A DNA stretch of 64,000 nucleotides from Kribbella aluminosa. GTDB taxonomy: Bacteria; Actinomycetota; Actinomycetes; Propionibacteriales; Kribbellaceae. The position numbers and the translations under genes were made by a program. Location of the stretch: assembly GCF_017876295.1 (NCBI RefSeq), contig NZ_JAGINT010000002.1, positions 3,286,001-3,350,000 on the forward strand, in the 5' to 3' direction. Positions within the stretch are counted from its first letter, which is position 1. Every line of letters begins with the position of its first letter. Under the pieces are notes generated by a model that was given only the letters and a program-made list of their open reading frames with translations, had not been told where the DNA came from and ran no database searches. Shown here piece after piece: positions 49,464 to 64,000 of this stretch.

Positions 49464-50523
49464 TCCGGAGGCGGCGCGGACCATCCGCGACGTCGCCGAC
49501 CGGGCCGGGGTCTCCACCGCGACCGTCTCTCGTGTTGTCAACGGCAACTATCCGGTCGCGGCCGGGACCCGGACCGCGGTGCAGCGCGCGATGCGGGAGC
49601 TCGGGTACGTCGCGAACGCGCACGCCCGGGCACTGGCCGGGTCCACCACCCGGGTGGTCGGGATCGTGGTCAGCGAGATCGTCGACCCGTTCTTCGCCTA
49701 CATCGCCCGCGGGGTGCAGTCCGAGGCGCTGTCGTCCGGCCGGCTCTGCCTGGTCTGCTCGACGCAGGGCGGTGATTCCGCCGAGCTGCGGTTCGTCGAC
49801 CTGCTGCTCGAGCAGCGCGCGGACGCGGTGATCCTGGTCGGCGGTGCGGTCGAGGACCAGGAGTACTTCGCCACCATCGGACAACGCGCGCAGCAACTGG
49901 CGAAGAACGGTTCCAGCCTGGTGCTCTGCGGGCGGCCGGGCCTGGAGTCCGGCGTACCGGCGTACGCCGTGGACTACGACAACTCCGGCGGCGCCGCGGC
50001 GATCACCGACCATCTGCTGAGCGCCGGGCACACGAGGATCCTGTACCTCGGCGGCCCGACGACGCTGTCCACGACGACGGCCCGGGTCCGCGGTTTCCGG
50101 CAGGCGTACGCCGCCCGCAAGCTCGACCACGATCCCGCACTGGTCCGTACCGGCGCCTTCGGCCGCCAGTGGGGTCACGACCAGACGCTCCGCGCTCTCG
50201 ACGAGGGCCTCGACTTCACCGCCGTCTTCGCCGCCAACGACATCGTCGCGGCCGGTGTGTACGCCGCCCTCCGGGAACGCGGCCTGAGCATCCCGGGCGA
50301 CGTCTCGGTGGTCGGGTACGACGACGTACCGGTCGCGGTCGAGCTGCAACCGGCGCTGACCACCGTCCGGGTCCCGCTCGAGGAGCTCGGCCGTGCAGCG
50401 GTCCGGGCCGGCATCGCCGGTCAGCAGCCGAGCGCGGACCCGTTCGCGCACCAGCAGCAGGTGACCACGCTCGGCACCGTCGTCGTGGTCCGCGACTCGG
50501 TCGGGCCACCGCGCTCCCGCTGA
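49423..50523 (+). CDS. LacI-family regulator of the glycan island
   Basis: Sugar-responsive repressor of 366 residues. The HTH and hinge helix are RTIRDVADRAGVSTATVSRV followed by VNGNYPVA, ELGYVANAHARALAG. The periplasmic-binding-like core starts TRVVGIVVSEIVDPFFAYIA and includes DAVILVGGAVEDQEYF and DFTAVFAANDIVAAGVYAAL. It overlaps the DUF2264 gene by 41 bp and so is co-expressed. The LacI-type GTAARCGTTTAC sites at 35527, 44432 and 44546 are its most likely targets, though the regulator at 52107 cannot be ruled out. Confidence 0.88.
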   Translation: MAAEPPRTRARRRDPEAARTIRDVADRAGVSTATVSRVVNGNYPVAAGTRTAVQRAMRELGYVANAHARALAGSTTRVVGIVVSEIVDPFFAYIARGVQSEALSSGRLCLVCSTQGGDSAELRFVDLLLEQRADAVILVGGAVEDQEYFATIGQRAQQLAKNGSSLVLCGRPGLESGVPAYAVDYDNSGGAAAITDHLLSAGHTRILYLGGPTTLSTTTARVRGFRQAYAARKLDHDPALVRTGAFGRQWGHDQTLRALDEGLDFTAVFAANDIVAAGVYAALRERGLSIPGDVSVVGYDDVPVAVELQPALTTVRVPLEELGRAAVRAGIAGQQPSADPFAHQQQVTTLGTVVVVRDSVGPPRSR

Positions 50524-50558
50524 TCACTCAGTGTTGACGCACGGTGACGAAACGGCAC

Positions 50559-57085: not shown

Positions 57086-59662
57086 ATGACTGACCACGAG
57101 ATCCGGATTGCTCTGGTACTGAACGGGGGCGTCAGTCTGGCGGTCTGGATGGGTGGGGTGACGCACGAGCTGGACCTGATCCGGCGGGCGTCCGGCAGGT
57201 CCGGCGCGCCCGGGCCGCAGCGGTACGACGCGGTGATCGCGGACCGGTGGCGGGAGCTGTGCCGGCGCGGGGACGAGCAGCGGCGGATCGTGGTGGACGT
57301 GATCGCGGGGACGAGCGCCGGCGGGCTGAACGGGTCCTTGCTGGCGACCGCGATCGCGAACGGGTCGACGCTCGACCCGGACAGCGAGAACGGGCCTTGG
57401 CTGCGGCAGAAGTGGGTCGCGCTCGGGTCGCTCGACGTCGGCAAGCTGGTGCCGTCCGCGGGCGTGAAGTCGCCGTCGGTGCTCGACGGCAAGTACTTCC
57501 TCCGCCAGGTCGAGGGGCTGCTCAAGGACGTCGCCGACGCCGGCCAGAGCGCCGCCGAGGAGCCGGTGACGTTATTCGTGACGGCGTCCGGTCTGGGCGT
57601 GCAGCAGTTCGAGGCGAAGGACGCAGCCGGACAGGCGTTCGTCGTACCGGATCATCGGTATCTGTACGGCTTCACGAGCGAGGATGCGCCGACGTACGAC
57701 GGGGTGCGGCGGAAGTTCGTCACCGAGGACAAGAACGCGCTGAAGGACACCGAGCTGCTGGCGCGCGCGGCGCGGGCGTCCGCGTCGTTCCCGGCCGCGT
57801 TCGGTCCGGTACTGGAGACGCCGGAGCTGGCCGCGCAACCGCCGCGGCTGCGCCCCGGTCCGGCCGAGGCCGGCGCCTGGCTGATCGACGGCGGCGTCCT
57901 CGACAACGCGCCGTTCGGGCCGGTGCTCGACGTCGTGGCCCGGCGTCCCGTCGTCGGCAAGGCGACCCGCTACGTGCTGTACGTCGTACCGTCCGCGGGG
58001 ATCGGGCACGCGTCGACCGCGCTGCCCGCGGCGAAGGAGCCGAGCTGGCGGGTGTCGGCGCTGTCCGCGGTGCAGTTCCCGCGCGAGGTGGACTTCCGTT
58101 CGGACGTCGAGCAGCTCGAACGCCTGCTGCTGGAGGCGGACGCGTCCTGGTCCGACACCCAGCGGCTCTTCGACCGTTGCCTGGAGCAACCGGACGAGCG
58201 GACCCGGCTGCGGGCGGCGGCCGCGGCGCTGCAACCGGCGTACTGCCGGGGCCGCGCGGCCGGTGGGGTGTGGGAGGCCGTGACGATCGCGAGCCACGAC
58301 CAGTCGACCGTGCTGGACGCCGCGACCGCGCTGTCGGAGTCCGAGATCGACGAGGTACTGCGCACCGAGCACCTGTGGGTCCCCGGGCCGGACGGCTCGA
58401 CCGCCGTGCTGCACGAGGAGGCCGACGGCAAGCCGAGCTGGTGGTGGGGGACCGGTTCGGCGGAGCGGATCGTCCGGTTGATCCTGCGGTCGTTGCGGAC
58501 CCGGATCAGCGCGGCGCCGCGCGCGGAACGGTCCGGGCTGGAGAGGCGGCTGACCGCGGCGAGCGACTGCCTGCTGAAGGTCCAGGCCGTCCGCGACGCA
58601 CTCGACGTACAGCTGGCGGCCGCGGATCTCGACCTGCGACCGGCCGGCGGGGCCGAAGCGGTCGCGGTCGGGCTGAACGACATCTTCGAGCAGTTGCAGA
58701 TCCAGCGCACCCTCGGCGACACGTTCGCCGCCCTGATCAAGAGCGTCGGCCAGGAGTTGGTGGACATCGCGCTCGAGGTCGAGATCGTGTCCCGGTGTAC
58801 GTCGGCGCGGACGCCGGAGCAGCGCAGTGCGCCGTTCCAGTTCCTCCGGCTCGGGCCGGACATCCCGCTGGCGGTGCTCGACGACCTGCAGGAAGGGTCG
58901 ATCGCGAACGAGCTGAACGACCGCATCCTGTACGGCAGCCAGGTCGGGCACTTCGGCGCGTTCGGTGCCGCGGACTGGCGGCGGTGGGACTGGCTGATGG
59001 GCCGGCTGCACTGCGTCGCGCACCTCGGCGCGATGCTCGGCGCGGACGCGGACTGGATCCGCGAGACCCAGCACCAGGTGCTGCAGGCCGAGGGCTGGCA
59101 GCTGGACGCGGTCGCCGAGCGGATCGAGCGGCTGGCCAGGGACTTCCCGGCCGACGCCGGGATGAACGCGTTGCTGACGATGCGGGACGAGCTGAACGCG
59201 TCACCCGAGGGCCGCGCGATCACGAAGGGGCTCGCGGACCGGATGGTCGACGTGTCGGGCGGTCTCGGTCCACAGGTCGGCGACTGGGTGAAGGCGACCG
59301 CCGGGCGGAAGAACCGGCCCGGCTCGTGGCTGCTGCGGACGGCCCGCTGGTTCACCGAACCGGCCCGGCAGGCGGTGTGGGAGCGGACCGTTCGCGGCGC
59401 CAAGGTGACTCCCGCGCAACGGCCGCCGATCTTCGAGCCATGGTTGCCCCTGGCAACAGCTGCGCTGGGGATCGTCCTGCTGGTGGTCGCCGGCGCGGTC
59501 GGCCCGCTCCGGCTGATCGCCGCCGTACTGGCCGGCGCGATCCTCGCACTCAGTGCCGTCCTCGGCGCGATCACCTGGTACGTCCGCCGCACCCGTCGCC
59601 GGATCCGTACGTGGCTGGAGAAGCGGATGCCGGAGATCAGTCCAGCGTCACGAAATCGATGA
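57086..59662 (+). CDS. Patatin-like phospholipase with C-terminal membrane helices (DUF3376 type)
   Basis: Probable lipid acyl hydrolase of 858 residues. The oxyanion loop is LVLNGGVSLAVWMGGVTHEL, the nucleophile Ser77 lies in IAGTSAGGLNGSLLATAIA, and the Asp of the dyad in WLIDGGVLDNAPFGPVLDVV. A long alpha-helical middle region follows, resembling DUF3376. Near residues 785-830 there are hydrophobic segments (LPLATAALGIVLLVVAGAVG and LIAAVLAGAILALSAVLGAI) ending in an Arg-rich tail, so the protein is membrane-anchored. Its last 26 bp overlap the convergent DUF3097 gene. Confidence 0.85.
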   Translation: MTDHEIRIALVLNGGVSLAVWMGGVTHELDLIRRASGRSGAPGPQRYDAVIADRWRELCRRGDEQRRIVVDVIAGTSAGGLNGSLLATAIANGSTLDPDSENGPWLRQKWVALGSLDVGKLVPSAGVKSPSVLDGKYFLRQVEGLLKDVADAGQSAAEEPVTLFVTASGLGVQQFEAKDAAGQAFVVPDHRYLYGFTSEDAPTYDGVRRKFVTEDKNALKDTELLARAARASASFPAAFGPVLETPELAAQPPRLRPGPAEAGAWLIDGGVLDNAPFGPVLDVVARRPVVGKATRYVLYVVPSAGIGHASTALPAAKEPSWRVSALSAVQFPREVDFRSDVEQLERLLLEADASWSDTQRLFDRCLEQPDERTRLRAAAAALQPAYCRGRAAGGVWEAVTIASHDQSTVLDAATALSESEIDEVLRTEHLWVPGPDGSTAVLHEEADGKPSWWWGTGSAERIVRLILRSLRTRISAAPRAERSGLERRLTAASDCLLKVQAVRDALDVQLAAADLDLRPAGGAEAVAVGLNDIFEQLQIQRTLGDTFAALIKSVGQELVDIALEVEIVSRCTSARTPEQRSAPFQFLRLGPDIPLAVLDDLQEGSIANELNDRILYGSQVGHFGAFGAADWRRWDWLMGRLHCVAHLGAMLGADADWIRETQHQVLQAEGWQLDAVAERIERLARDFPADAGMNALLTMRDELNASPEGRAITKGLADRMVDVSGGLGPQVGDWVKATAGRKNRPGSWLLRTARWFTEPARQAVWERTVRGAKVTPAQRPPIFEPWLPLATAALGIVLLVVAGAVGPLRLIAAVLAGAILALSAVLGAITWYVRRTRRRIRTWLEKRMPEISPASRNR

Positions 59663-60461
59663 GCTCCTCGACGCGGCCGAGCAGGGCCGGGTCGAGGTCG
59701 GCGAAGCTGTTCACCTTCGACAGGATGTGTTTCCAGGCGGCGGCGACGTCGGCCTGGTCGGTGGCCGGCCAGCCGAACGACTGCAGCACGCCCTTCTTCC
59801 AGTCCTGCCCGTGCGGGATCTTCGGCCACGCCTTGATCCCGACCGACGACGGCTTGACCGCCTCCCAGATGTCGATGAACGGGTGCCCGACGACCAGGAC
59901 GTAGCGGTTGCTGACCTGCGCCGCGATCTTCGACTCCTTCGAGCCTTCGACCAGGTGGTCGACGAGTACGCCGAGCCGCCGGCCGGGGCCGGGCTGGAAC
60001 CGGTTGACGATCTCGACCAGGTCGTCGACGCCTTCGAGGTACTCGACCACGACGCCCTCGATCCGCAGGTCGTCGCCCCAGACCCGCTCGACCAGCTCGG
60101 CGTCGTGCCGGCCCTCGACGTAGATCCGGCTGGCCCGCGCCACCTTCGCCCGGACGTTGCCGACCGCGACCGAACCGGACGCGGTCCGGGTCTTCTTCGC
60201 CTGGCCGGCCTTCTTCGGCGGCTTCAGGCTGACCGGCTTCCCGTCCAGCCAGAACCCCGGCCCGAGCGGATAGGTACGGATCTTCCCGTGCCGGTCCTCG
60301 AGATCGACGACGCCGTGCTCCCAGCGCACGATCGCCCCGACGAACCCCGAGCTGGGCTCCTCGACGACCATCCCCTTCTGGATCTCGACCTCGACGGTCC
60401 GCCCGTTCTTGGGCTTGCGCCAGTCACCCGCGAGTACGTCGTTCCCATACCTGTCGGCCAC
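59637..60461 (-). CDS. DUF3097 family protein
   Basis: Conserved actinobacterial protein of unknown function, 274 residues. The N-terminal part is a small beta domain (GMVVEEPSSGFVGAIVRWEH, LEDRHGKIRTYPLGPGFWLD). The C-terminal part (RIYVEGRHDAELVERVWGDD, RLGVLVDHLVEGSKESKIAA, RYVLVVGHPFIDIWEAVKPS) looks Toprim-like, with Glu and DxD-like acidic residues at strand ends, suggesting a nucleic acid function. That fold guess is inference. It is the second gene in the direction of the NCS1 permease, 9 bp downstream of it. Confidence 0.82.
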   Translation of the reverse strand: MADRYGNDVLAGDWRKPKNGRTVEVEIQKGMVVEEPSSGFVGAIVRWEHGVVDLEDRHGKIRTYPLGPGFWLDGKPVSLKPPKKAGQAKKTRTASGSVAVGNVRAKVARASRIYVEGRHDAELVERVWGDDLRIEGVVVEYLEGVDDLVEIVNRFQPGPGRRLGVLVDHLVEGSKESKIAAQVSNRYVLVVGHPFIDIWEAVKPSSVGIKAWPKIPHGQDWKKGVLQSFGWPATDQADVAAAWKHILSKVNSFADLDPALLGRVEELIDFVTLD

Positions 60462-60470
60462 CCGCCCATG

Positions 60471-62006
60471 CTAATAAGTGGGAGCCGCATGCGCGGCCGT
60501 CGACTGGCGGTTCGGCGCGGTGAGTGTGAGGACGAAGTACGCGAGGAATCCGGCGGCGATGCCGACGGCCCACGAGTAGTCGTAGAGCGGTTTGAGGAAC
60601 GGGATCAGGCCGTGCTGGGGGAACGGGCCGGCGCCCGGGTCAGAGTGCGCGCCGCCGACCGCGAGCAGGGAGCCGAACAGGGTCGCGACGACGGCGCGCC
60701 AGTTCCAGCCGGCCGAGTACCAGTAGCGGCCGTCCGGTGTGTAGAGGTCCGCGAGTTGCAGGTGCGTACGGTCGATCACCCAGTACCCGGCGACCAGTAC
60801 GCCGGCCACCGACGCGAGCAGGCCGCCGTAGAACGACAGCCAGACGAAGATGTAGATCGACGGGTCCGAGATCAGCCGCCAGGGCTGGATGACGATCCCG
60901 ATCACGCCGGTGACCAGGCCCGCGGTCCGGAAGTTCAGCCAGCGCGGCACCGCGTTCGCGAAGTCGTACGACGGACTCACCACGTTCGCCGCGACGTTGC
61001 AGGACATCGTCGCGAGGATCGCCATCACCAGGCCGATCGTGACGATCACCGGGTTCTGGAACCGGCGGGTGAGCTCGACCGGGTCCCAGATCGCCGAGCC
61101 GTACAGCACCACGGTGCCGGACGTGGTGATGATCGAGACCAGCGCGATGAACGACATCGTGGTCGGCAGGCCGATCACCTGGCCCCACACCTGCGCCCGC
61201 TGGCCCTTCCCGAACCGGGTGAAGTCCGGCATGTTCAGCGACAGCGTCGCCCAGAACGCGATCATGCCCATCAACGACGGCGCGAAGATCTTCCAGAAGT
61301 CCGGTCCCCAGCCGAGCTTCGACGGCTGCGACAGGATCGGGCCGAAGCCGCCGGCCTTCACCAGGATCGCCACCATCAGCGCCACGAACGCGATCGTCAC
61401 CAGCGGCGCAGCCCAGTTCTCGAACCGCCGCAGGCCCTCGATCCCGCGGAAGATCAGCACCATCTGCAGGGTCCAGAAGAACAGGAAGCTCACCCACATC
61501 GTCCACGGGTGGCCGCCGATCGCCGACGCCCCGGTCCAGCCCTTGCCGAACAGCTCGCCGACGATCACGAAGATCGCCTGGCCGCCGATCCAGGTCTGGA
61601 TCCCGAACCAGCCGCAGGCGATGAAGGCCCGCAGCAGCGCCGGAAAGTTCGCGCCGCGGACGCCGTAGAACGCCCGCGCGAAGACCGGGAACGGGATGCC
61701 GTACTTCGTACCGGCGTGACTGTTCAGCAGCAGCGGGACCAGGACGATCAGGTTCCCGAGGGTGATCGTGAGGAACGCCTGCAGCCAGTTCATCCCGAGC
61801 GCGACCAGCCCGGCCGCGAGCAGGTAGCTGGGGATGTTGTGCGCCATCCCCATCCAGAGCGCGGCGTAGTTGTACGTCGTCCAGGTCCGCTCGGGCAACC
61901 GCGTCGGCGCGAGTTCGGCGTTCGCGTACCGGCTGTCCTTGAGTGCTTGCGGATCGGTCAGCTCGACACGTCCGTCGGGGTGAACGGTTTGCACAAGCGT
62001 GGTCAT
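60471..62006 (-). CDS. NCS1-family nucleobase/hydantoin/allantoin permease
   Basis: Cation symporter for nucleobase-related compounds, 511 residues with 12 helices. Family motifs: DLYTPDGRYWYSAGWNW near the end, RTWTTYNYAALWMGMAHNIP at helix 1, FPVFARAFYGVRGANFPALL, RAFIACGWFGIQTWIGGQAI, and SLNMPDFTRFGKGQRAQVWG. The substrate (allantoin, hydantoin, uracil or other) is not readable; no catabolic genes are adjacent. Both the Shine-Dalgarno GGGAGG and the ATG are inside the 3' arm of a 20-bp leader hairpin (62002-62090), which strongly suggests control at translation. Confidence 0.88.
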   Translation of the reverse strand: MTTLVQTVHPDGRVELTDPQALKDSRYANAELAPTRLPERTWTTYNYAALWMGMAHNIPSYLLAAGLVALGMNWLQAFLTITLGNLIVLVPLLLNSHAGTKYGIPFPVFARAFYGVRGANFPALLRAFIACGWFGIQTWIGGQAIFVIVGELFGKGWTGASAIGGHPWTMWVSFLFFWTLQMVLIFRGIEGLRRFENWAAPLVTIAFVALMVAILVKAGGFGPILSQPSKLGWGPDFWKIFAPSLMGMIAFWATLSLNMPDFTRFGKGQRAQVWGQVIGLPTTMSFIALVSIITTSGTVVLYGSAIWDPVELTRRFQNPVIVTIGLVMAILATMSCNVAANVVSPSYDFANAVPRWLNFRTAGLVTGVIGIVIQPWRLISDPSIYIFVWLSFYGGLLASVAGVLVAGYWVIDRTHLQLADLYTPDGRYWYSAGWNWRAVVATLFGSLLAVGGAHSDPGAGPFPQHGLIPFLKPLYDYSWAVGIAAGFLAYFVLTLTAPNRQSTAAHAAPTY

Positions 62007-62090
62007 GGGGCCTCCCGGTCTGGACTGAGGAGCGGAGGGAGCGAAGCGACCGGAGCGACGAGGGAAGACCGGGAGTTAGAGCCCCATGAC
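62002..62090 (-). promoter_or_regulatory. Start-sequestering leader hairpin of the NCS1 permease with a three-codon upstream ORF
   Basis: Read as RNA from the minus strand: GUCAUGGGGC (62090-62081), a 5-base bulge UCUAA, CUCCCGGUCU (62075-62066), a 44-base loop, then AGACCGGGAG (62021-62012) and GCCCCAUGAC (62011-62002). Both 10-bp arms are perfect. The 3' arm contains the Shine-Dalgarno sequence and the permease AUG. The 5' arm contains AUG GGG CUC UAA, a complete three-codon upstream ORF (62087-62076). A smaller hairpin CCGCGAC-gga-GTCGCGG lies at 62094-62110. Confidence 0.7.
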
Positions 62091-62122
62091 CCGCCGCGAC
62101 GGAGTCGCGGCATCAATAGAGC

Positions 62123-62195
62123 CATGAGGTCCACCCCATTCGGTCCGGCGATGTCCGTTCCGAACAAGTTGCGGGACGGGATGACCTCATGTCAA
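62123..62195 (-). promoter_or_regulatory. Inverted repeat and -35 box upstream of the NCS1 leader
   Basis: CATGAGGTC (62123-62131) and its exact complement GACCTCATG (62183-62191) are separated by 51 bp. The right copy overlaps a minus-strand TTGACA (62195-62190). The arrangement suggests two half-sites for a regulator of the permease promoter; no clear -10 box was found. Confidence 0.4.
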
Positions 62196-62215
62196 CGGAC
62201 AACTACCGAAAGGCT

Positions 62216-62983
62216 TTATCCGGGGCCGAGGAGCGGGAGGCTCGGGCGTTTCGGTGTGCCGAGGGCCGCGTAGCCGCGGCGGATCGCGTCCTGGAGTTTG
62301 TCGACCGGCCACGGCCAGTCCTCGGTGTGCTCGAGCGCGTCGTCCAGCGACGTACCGGCGTGGTGCAGCGTCGAGATCGTGTTCGCGACCCTGCCGAGCT
62401 CGATCGCCTGGTCGCGGGCGAACTCGAGGTCGACGACGGCGCCGTGGCCGGGGACGATCCGCACGCCCAGCGGCATCATCCCGACCACGGCCTGGATGGT
62501 GTCCGGCCATTCGAGCGGGAACGAGTCCTCGCCGTACGACGGCGGCGCCGACTCCTCGAGCAGGTCGCCGACGAAGAACACCTCGACATCCGGTACGGCG
62601 ACCACCGTGTCGCCGGAGGTGTGCCCGTTGCCGACGTGCAGCAGCTCGACGCGGCGGTCGCCGAGGTCGACCACCTTCGCGGCGGCGAACGTCGTACCGG
62701 CGAGGTTCTGCTCGGTGGCGGCGTTCTCGTGCAGGTAGACCTCCGCGTCGGTGAAGACGCTGTTGCCGACCACGTGGTCGAAGTGCGCGTGGGTGTTGAC
62801 GACCCACTTCACCGGGAGGCCGGTGAGCTCGCGGATGTGGTCGCGGAGCTGCTCGGCCTCCTCGGCGGTCGCGCGGGTGTCGATCACCAGGGCGCCGTCC
62901 GCGCCGACGACCAGGCCGACGTTCAGGTCCCATTCGTCGTACCGGCGAACCCACGTACGGTCGCCGAGCTCCGTCCAACTCAT
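62216..62983 (-). CDS. MBL-fold metallohydrolase
   Basis: Metallo-beta-lactamase-fold hydrolase of 255 residues, class B2/B3-like quinoprotein-hydrolase type. Metal ligands are clear: [17 protein letters not shown] (HxHxDH), [19 protein letters not shown], the Asp in [14 protein letters not shown], and [14 protein letters not shown] (last His). Start ATG 62983. Substrate unknown. It is 232 bp downstream of the divergence point of the NCS1 leader on the same strand and follows the EF-Tu-like gene by 23 bp, so it is likely transcribed with that gene. Confidence 0.83.
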
Positions 62984-63006
62984 GCGCTCGACAGTACTTG
63001 CCGTCG

Positions 63007-63387
63007 TTATTTGCCGAGTACGTCGCCCCTCGCGACCTGGTCCCGCTTGACGCCGCGGAGCAGCAGGCCCACGTTGTCGCCGGGCTTCGCGGTCTGCACG
63101 ATCTTGCGGAACATCTCGACGCCGGTCACCTCGACCTGCAGGAGCGGCTGCCCGGCGCGGCTGATCAGCACCTGCTCGCCGACCGAGACCGTCCCGGTCC
63201 GCACCCGCCCGGTGACCACGGTCCCGCGTCCGGCGATCGAGAACACGTCCTCGACCGTCATCCCGAACGACCCCACCGGCAGGGTGTCCTGCGGCCGCTC
63301 GGGAAAGCTGTTCGGCTGCGCGTGCCCACGCGCCAGCAGCTCCTGCGGATCCATCGGATTCGACCGCTTCCAGAACTTCCAGCCCAT
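63007..63387 (-). CDS. Free-standing EF-Tu domain 2-like protein
   Basis: A 126-residue protein consisting almost only of a translation-factor beta-barrel. The segments [58 protein letters not shown] and [20 protein letters not shown] follow domain 2 of EF-Tu in order. There is no GTPase domain and no domain 3; instead there is a short N-terminus ([20 protein letters not shown]) with basic and aromatic residues. It cannot act as a classical elongation factor. It may bind RNA or the ribosome; the role is unknown. Start ATG 63387. Confidence 0.82.
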
Positions 63388-63480
63388 GTGGTGAGAGTAG
63401 TGCTTGGCAAGCCCTCTCCCGCCGATTTAAGGTCGCAAGTGTTCCGATCGGAACTCCGGAACTTTCGAAGGGTGGCCGGT

Positions 63481-64000
63481 GTGACGACACGACGTGCGGT
63501 TGTGGTCCGGGGTGGCTGGGAAGGGCACTCCCCGGTCGAGGCGACCGATCTGTTCATCCCGTACCTGGAGGCGAACGGGTTCGAGGTGACGGTCTCCGAC
63601 TCGACCGCGGCGTACCTCGAACTCGACGGCGTCGACCTGGTGCTGCAGTGCGTGACGATGAGCGAGATCGAGCCCGAGCACTTCAAGGGCCTGGAGGCGG
63701 CGATCCGGCGCGGTACCGGGTTCGCCGGCTGGCACGGCGGGATCGCGGACTCGTTCCGCAAGAACGTCGACTACAGCTTCATCACCGGCGGGCAGTTCAT
63801 CTCGCACCCGCACGGCTTCACCGACTACCGCGTCGACATAATTGCCGACCATCCGATTGTCGACGGCATCACGCACTTCGACGTGCACACCGAGCAGTAC
63901 TACATCCACTACGACCCGACGAACACCGTGCTCGCCACGACGACGTTCCAGTCGCACCCGGACTACCCGTGGATCGAGGGCGCCGTGATGCCGGCGATCT
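63481..64000 (+). CDS. ThuA-like protein, 3' end outside the window
   Basis: Partial gene, 173 codons visible, starting at GTG 63481 behind AAGGGTGG. The fold is glutamine-amidotransferase-like, as in ThuA of trehalose/maltitol utilisation: RRAVVVRGGWEGHSPVEATD, LFIPYLEANGFEVTVSDSTA, LDGVDLVLQCVTMSEIEPEH, RGTGFAGWHGGIADSFRKNV, GGQFISHPHGFTDYRV, THFDVHTEQYYIHYDPTNTV. The usual protein is about 210-240 residues, so only the last part is missing. Such genes often sit in sugar operons; the downstream partners lie beyond the window. ATTGTCGACGGC, a partial match to the recurrent palindrome, is at 63856. Confidence 0.85.
   Translation, partial: MTTRRAVVVRGGWEGHSPVEATDLFIPYLEANGFEVTVSDSTAAYLELDGVDLVLQCVTMSEIEPEHFKGLEAAIRRGTGFAGWHGGIADSFRKNVDYSFITGGQFISHPHGFTDYRVDIIADHPIVDGITHFDVHTEQYYIHYDPTNTVLATTTFQSHPDYPWIEGAVMPAI

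Follow-up and report, generated by a model that had tools for sequence, protein, structure and literature searches.

Bacterial MITE-like palindromic repeats, among them ERIC/RU-1, Correia/NEMIS, RUP, CIR and YPAL/RU-2, are small (~100–200 bp), dispersed, strongly folded and presumably non-autonomous, and some of them carry open frames; in the parts of their descriptions available to us (PMC2229807, PMC2759123) they mostly lie between genes or are joined to them in frame, and these parts mention neither a placement on start codons nor the supply of a new Shine-Dalgarno (SD) sequence and start with an overlapping stop. The Rickettsia palindromic elements (RPE; Ogata et al. 2000, via the available part of PMC2229807) are palindromic, mobile and tolerated in genes thanks to their own open frame, by which they are fused into the host protein. 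Translational coupling across ATGA overlaps (TeRe) is described for ordinary neighbour genes and was strict in 13 of 14 tested overlapping pairs (PMC6728339, in part), and the unfolding of a ribosome-site hairpin by upstream translation is one of two models given in the accessible part of PMC12548453. HEARO/IscB-associated elements are structured RNAs with mobile-element links (PMC9755519, in part), and the part available of a work on stem-loop families (PMC2267715) holds nothing on a start-codon element.

The element described here touches on all of these systems. As a small folded repeat it belongs with the bacterial MITE-like elements (PMC2229807, in the part available), sharing their size, dispersal, strong fold and presumed dependence on other functions for movement, but it sits on start codons and shows no clear target duplication. 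It resembles the RPE in being palindromic, mobile and open in frame, but the N-terminus of the host protein is kept and the foreign peptide would be encoded by a cistron of its own. It has the ATGA overlap of coupled gene pairs, but here the element itself creates both the upstream cistron and the overlap; with the HEARO elements it shares a structured RNA linked to mobility.

The window, that is the whole 64,000-nt stretch of Kribbella aluminosa DNA that was analysed, contains one copy at the start of an NCS1 family permease gene located between an upstream metallo-beta-lactamase-fold gene and a downstream DUF3097 gene. Among named relatives, those nearest to the permease belong to Kribbella (K. 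pratensis, 91%; K. antiqua, 88%). A separate 126-aa ORF (63007-63387, minus strand) is a stand-alone protein with little beyond EF-Tu domain 2 (GTP_EFTU_D2). The features of the permease leader are as follows.

60471..62006, minus strand: NCS1 family permease, the host gene (PF02133, 2.9e-130; TIGR00800 over its cut-off)
62001..62011, minus strand: 3′ arm of the outer helix, GCCCCATGACC, holding the new start codon
62002..62120, minus strand: element copy, 119 bp, placed after the host ATGGC and with ATGAC as right end, delimited by repeat boundaries and empty orthologous sites (boundary uncertain by ~1 base)
62003..62125, minus strand: 40-codon upstream ORF (uORF), beginning at the ancestral permease start, its TGA (62003-62005) overlapping the new ATG
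62004..62006, minus strand: element-borne permease ATG, in the 3′ strand of the hairpin
62011..62016, minus strand: element-borne SD sequence GGGAGG, in the 3′ strand of the hairpin
62012..62021, minus strand: 3′ arm of the inner helix, 10 bp
62022..62065, minus strand: conserved C/U-rich loop, 44 nt, TCCCTCGTCGC...CTCAGTCC
62066..62075, minus strand: 5′ arm of the inner helix, 10 bp
62076..62080, minus strand: bulge, 5 nt
62076..62087, minus strand: mini-ORF ATG-GGG-CTC-TAA of the first-pass annotation, not conserved (6/47 units)
62081..62091, minus strand: 5′ arm of the outer helix, GGTCATGGGGC, pairing with 62001-62011 over 11 bp
62093..62111, minus strand: small left hairpin, GCCGCGAC-TCC-GTCGCGGC
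62121..62125, minus strand: ATGGC, the ancestral, host-derived NCS1 start and now the uORF start; ATGGC stands at the equivalent site in many empty leaders
62131..62140, minus strand: ancestral purine-rich ribosome-site region, AATGGGGTGG, similar in relatives' leaders and now presumably serving the uORF
62166..62195, minus strand: likely promoter, TTGACA (62190-62195) and CAACTT (62166-62171), as judged from relatives

The first-pass annotation of this DNA had proposed a translational switch particular to NCS1 permeases, built on a minus-strand hairpin with two stacked helices, a 5-nt bulge and a 44-nt loop. That geometry is present, with GGGAGG and the permease ATG in the 3′ strand and ATG-GGG-CTC-TAA in the 5′ strand at the coordinates given there; the outer helix is perfectly paired as claimed but measures 11 bp, not 10. 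The annotation had made no mention of a repeat family, of the in-frame 40-codon ORF (62125-62003) or of the second small hairpin (62111-62093). RNAfold gives −112 kcal/mol for 251 nt around the hairpin (z = −3.4, 0/200 shuffles as stable) and −43.2 kcal/mol for the hairpin by itself, and the hairpin exceeds chance because the same sequence recurs across the genome. In a check for terminal inverted repeats, the element's right end is paired with an arm inside it (62091-62081) and its left end (62120) falls beyond the main hairpin; the ends of the loop are recognisable even in distant relatives of the element. HEARO elements have been reported to integrate at ATGA/GTGA-like sites, and no paper with those terms was found in the open-access literature. 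Positions 58000-64000 of the window contain no Rfam match up to E 1 and none to HEARO, and seven further loci of the element gave two weak Rfam matches only, both under the gathering score and outside the element, again without HEARO.

The element is a dispersed 119-bp repeat and not an NCS1-permease leader. With the leader as query, a search of the element's own genome (8.94 Mb on two contigs) yielded 42 places, with 40 of 79 first-look candidates scored, and a covariance model based on 42 aligned units matched 49 times (46 full-length copies, 1 deletion derivative, 1 partial copy and 1 opposite-strand echo). We analysed 47 oriented units at 45 loci, leaving out the partial second copy at L007 (C1:3157124-3157195) and the opposite-strand echo (C1:1009215-1009343); the window's other matches, an opposite-strand echo at 61981-62093 and a weak match at 50411-50551 (E 0.12), were likewise unused. 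Each unit runs from just past one start codon to a second start codon, and in the head-to-tail tandems at two loci (L011, L032) adjoining units share a start codon, the second of one serving as the first of the other. In its many dispersed copies the element agrees with small palindromic mobile repeats that are MITE-like in the broad sense. The deletion derivative, L155 (C1:321496-321561), has lost 63 nt of hairpin and loop in an internal deletion, which leaves it without the loop, and keeps the small hairpin, the frame and the ATGA overlap.

An ORF of at least 100 codons begins at the element's own RTGA in 41 of the 47 units (45 loci). The remaining six are two tandem first units, which are followed by the 40-codon ORF of the next unit, together with L013, which has just a 53-codon ORF downstream, and L016, L026 and L033, which have no gene downstream. 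Among 46 units the left host start is ATGAC (27), GTGAC (6), ATGGC (4) or another sequence (9), which places RTGAC or RTGGC at 37/46 insertion sites. Insertion occurred at codon 4 in L021 (ATGAAACTCAC) and at TTGAATAC in L022, from which it may be that a purine-C in second-base phase near a start suffices as target. The flanking RTGRC resembles ATGAC, and with a different target (ATGGC in NCS1, GTGAC in L028) the right copy still reads ATGAC. Selective survival, instead of targeting, could account for some of the start-codon bias. The host genes fall into unrelated Pfam families (40 of the 41 non-NCS1 units with an ORF of at least 50 codons were searched, L155 being left out; 8/40 proteins had no hit at 1e-5), including shikimate dehydrogenase, GidB, amino acid kinase, MlaE, several ABC transporter parts, the NADH-quinone oxidoreductase/Mrp antiporter family, a second NCS1-family permease and others. 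We take the shikimate dehydrogenase, GidB and amino acid kinase matches to be aroE, rsmG and argB. The second NCS1-family gene, L030 (C1, around 595144-595272), has its copy at the start.

The frame opened at the old start is conserved. In 43 of the 46 units with a left start the uORF stops exactly at the overlap with the new start, as the upstream gene of an ATGA pair does, and the frame is kept in 17/19 length variants (p = 6e-7 against one third). Because the left starts of length variants had been assigned by eye, we repeated the count from a fixed anchor, chosen from the alignment without regard to frame, and obtained 41/47 units and 16/21 length variants (p = 7e-5). Three of the anchor misses (L020, L023, L028) are in the right frame from the host start because their insertion point is shifted relative to it. 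Counted from the host start, the exceptions are L016 (early stop) and L033 (shifted frame), neither of which precedes a gene, and L040, which does precede one and whose uORF stop falls 8 nt past the new start.

The fold is conserved as well. In the alignment, 95.6% of cells pair in the 29-pair structure, versus 23–47% in slid versions of it, and two-sided changes occur at 11 pairs in 62 cells (shuffled mean 16.2, 0/500 shuffles as high). The first-pass annotation had looked to compensatory changes in both arms for support; they are present, but among paralogous copies. The small left hairpin has compensatory changes at 2/8 pairs and 90.1% of its cells paired. The new start codon itself covaries, the five GTG units having CAC in the 5′ arm, and the match is incomplete, as three ATG units also have CAC there. 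Conserved frame and conserved pairing are not independent observations because the copies share descent, although the evidence from pairing is strong.

Computed from an assumed transcription start, the stretch from SD to AUG has a predicted unpaired probability of 0.0 in the window versus 0.29–0.41 in four element-free leaders, in agreement with the earlier proposal that ribosome site and start are locked in the hairpin, and the uORF initiation region is predicted to be open at 0.35, about as in the element-free leaders. The TTGACA...CAACTT pair recurs, with variation, upstream of the site in relatives' leaders, and because this promoter-like pair lies upstream of the element the hairpin is probably transcribed into the mRNA. 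Where the left start of a copy reads ATGAC, the GTCAT of the 5′ arm might pair with either the new start or the left start, a possible alternative fold that would set 62091-62081 against 62125-62121 in the window.

Relatives preserve the empty NCS1 site. All 38 congeneric genomes have an ortholog of the permease, and 28 of the 30 congeneric leaders read (the window's included) lack the element, the two carriers being the window and genome G007 (L131). The permease of the 28 element-free genomes starts at the equivalent site, where relatives read ATGGC|CACG and the window reads ATGGC, element, CACG. Supported branches of the gene tree part the two carriers, with two changes required and a single gain in 0% of 200 bootstrap trees, and the old start codons of the carriers differ (ATG versus GTG). 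Two independent insertions at the same NCS1 start codon are the simplest history, because the tree parts the carriers and one gain with several exact losses needs more steps.

The other copies are patchy too. Using joined N-terminal pieces of 40 proteins as query, we sought 40 loci in two relatives (G058 and G022) and scored a site as empty if the loop end CAGTCCAG was absent near the start. Orthologs were found at 38 loci and every one of these had at least one empty site (34 empty and 3 filled in G058, 34 and 4 in G022); these two relatives therefore do not share most of the copies. Such presence and absence at orthologous sites, at 38/38 loci and at NCS1, is that of MITE-like elements. Most empty sites have a start codon at the insertion point, with no clean RTGRC start at L022 and L040. 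The ortholog of L007 was not found, and L021 fell under the threshold of the empty-site table, though an empty ortholog is visible. The table has 44 rows and leaves out the tandem first units of L011 and L032 and NCS1 itself; four of its rows (L013, L016, L026, L033) lay outside the search in the relatives because their ORFs are short.

Our preferred reading, with a probability of about 0.8, is that the repeat is a small non-autonomous mobile element, a "start-codon hitchhiker", made tolerable by what would be translational coupling. It inserts just past a host start codon, mostly after RTGAC or RTGGC, as can be read from the junctions. The old start then opens an element-encoded frame of about 40 codons, also legible in the DNA, and the right end of the element gives the host gene a second SD and start codon (ATG or GTG) inside the long bulged hairpin, with the UGA of the uORF overlapping the new start (RTGA, as AUGA or GUGA) in the sequence of the copies. 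Ribosomes loading at the old start may translate the ~40-codon frame, melt the hairpin and end at the UGA, whereupon synthesis of the host protein would begin either at the SD and start thus set free or by reinitiation of the same ribosome, and expression would be preserved. With a coupled new start the host protein would therefore hardly change, and its expression would still depend on the old initiation site; the element appears to invade genes without silencing them. Some factor would have to move the element, perhaps as a folded single strand, by reading the conserved loop and hairpins. The hairpin is likely opened by a ribosome translating an upstream ORF, as the first-pass annotation had suggested, but the ORF in question would be the conserved 40-codon frame from 62125 and not the three-codon one.

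A switch specific to NCS1 permeases, worked by a loop ligand, the three-codon ORF or an antisense RNA, would account for the predicted sequestration of the permease ribosome site and for the copy before the second NCS1-family gene, but we consider it extremely improbable. The element is not NCS1-specific because 28/30 congeneric leaders are without it and unrelated genes are preceded by it, including those of the shikimate dehydrogenase, GidB and amino-acid-kinase families; the arms are thus not conserved in orthologous leaders, which the annotation itself had held against a switch, the mini-ORF occurs in just 6/47 units, no Rfam family matches in 58000-64000, and no support was found for a nucleobase ligand or an antisense RNA. 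An NCS1 riboswitch or three-codon-ORF switch is out on the empty orthologs and the unconserved mini-ORF. The same predicted sequestration of SD and start, with the strong conservation of the loop among copies, would also fit a regulon in which a protein or RNA acting in trans binds the loop and controls ~45 genes jointly, the copies being spread or kept for that purpose. A conserved loop is also expected of a mobility signal, though, and we judge a regulon quite improbable given that the host genes have no common theme (Pfam, 40 proteins, 8 without a hit), that copies are missing at 34/37 and 34/38 orthologous sites of the two relatives, and that 10 of the 38 congeneric genomes have no model match among the best candidates scored (up to 11 per genome).

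The remaining alternatives accept mobility. An ordinary non-autonomous element of the IS200/605 or REP/RAYT type, moved by a Y1 HUH transposase, is favoured by hairpins near both ends and by a junction consistent with entry on the 3′ side of a short, unduplicated target, the right end repeating a target-like ATGAC; such a junction would resemble IS200/605 joints. We regard this as unlikely, since the Y1 domain PF01797 was not found in the element's own genome and was found in 1/38 congeneric genomes, one without the element, by a search whose controls were positive in 5/14 known genomes; a diverged or recently lost Y1 enzyme may be involved. Reverse transcriptase (RVT_1) does not track the element either (1/12 element-bearing versus 3/10 element-free congeneric genomes), so that presence and absence support neither enzyme as mobiliser. 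Plasmid and phage collections gave no blastn match at E 1e-5, and a scan of viral contigs with the loop pattern gave 24 matches, known at pattern level only. It is possible, if doubtful, that the element enters many RTGRC-like sites and that only the gene-preserving insertions at start codons persist: the target core RTGAC/RTGGC is short, L021 lies at codon 4, and L016, L026 and L033 lie where no gene starts. However, the 64-kb window contains 487 RTGRC sites on both strands against an estimated some tens of gene starts, non-coding insertions should persist too, yet 41/47 units precede a long ORF, and NCS1 was, most simply, struck twice at the same start.

The preferred reading of a mobile element tolerated through coupling could extend further. 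We advance tentatively, at somewhat less than even odds, that this is a wholly new class of mobile element that targets start codons and whose mobile module of uORF, hairpin and new start remakes the ATGA overlap, so that almost any gene, even an essential one, could be entered with its expression maintained, at the price of translational coupling for that gene; the class would be part of a wider actinobacterial bulged-hairpin superfamily with one other family mostly near gene ends. No description of the element was found in the open-access literature, and to that extent the combination of start-codon landing and a coupled new start is new. If true, it would be a translational counterpart of introns and inteins, which rely on splicing, in that insertion is tolerated through decoding. 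About 40 genes that occur in sister species both with this coupling module and without it would form a natural experiment on the effect of coupling on expression. The case also cautions that uORF-plus-hairpin leaders can be mobile DNA and not evolved switches, and it raises the question of which enzyme recognises start codons.

Divergent relatives of the element are present in other actinobacteria. Within the order, the model has matches in at least 41 of 293 genomes (28 congeneric, 12 of family f3 and 1 of f2, with up to 11 best candidates scored per genome), and the ten congeneric genomes without a match gave none in another search either. All 20 copies sampled from the top-scoring matches in 10 other congeneric genomes have the start-codon layout: the RTGA is followed by an ORF of at least 92 codons, and a left start lies in frame at −119. 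The related elements of family f3 keep the bulged double hairpin and CTTCCCTC...CAGTCCAG-like loop ends; among 30 loci read, a long sense ORF terminates close to the left end at 23, and at none does a long ORF start at the right end, counts that are indicative only, given loose windows, GC-rich DNA and some near-identical loci. At two loci (L248 in G278, L253 in G207) a related hairpin element lies directly past the stop codon of a gene, whose product has, by eye, a C-terminus like that of the DUF3097 protein after the window's NCS1 gene. Across the class, 16/393 other genomes match at E <= 1e-6, and placement is mixed, because at 10 of 22 loci read a long sense ORF terminates close to the left end. 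Two copies in genome G613 (L273, L305) end in GGGAGGCCCCGTGACC at an ORF start, and the start-codon form therefore also occurs outside the genus; L305 lacks a uORF start in frame. The same genome holds a longer-loop variant of the superfamily (L306-L309), with an extra palindrome TTTCAAGATCGC...GCGATCTTGAAA in the loop and no ORF of at least 100 codons from the right end.
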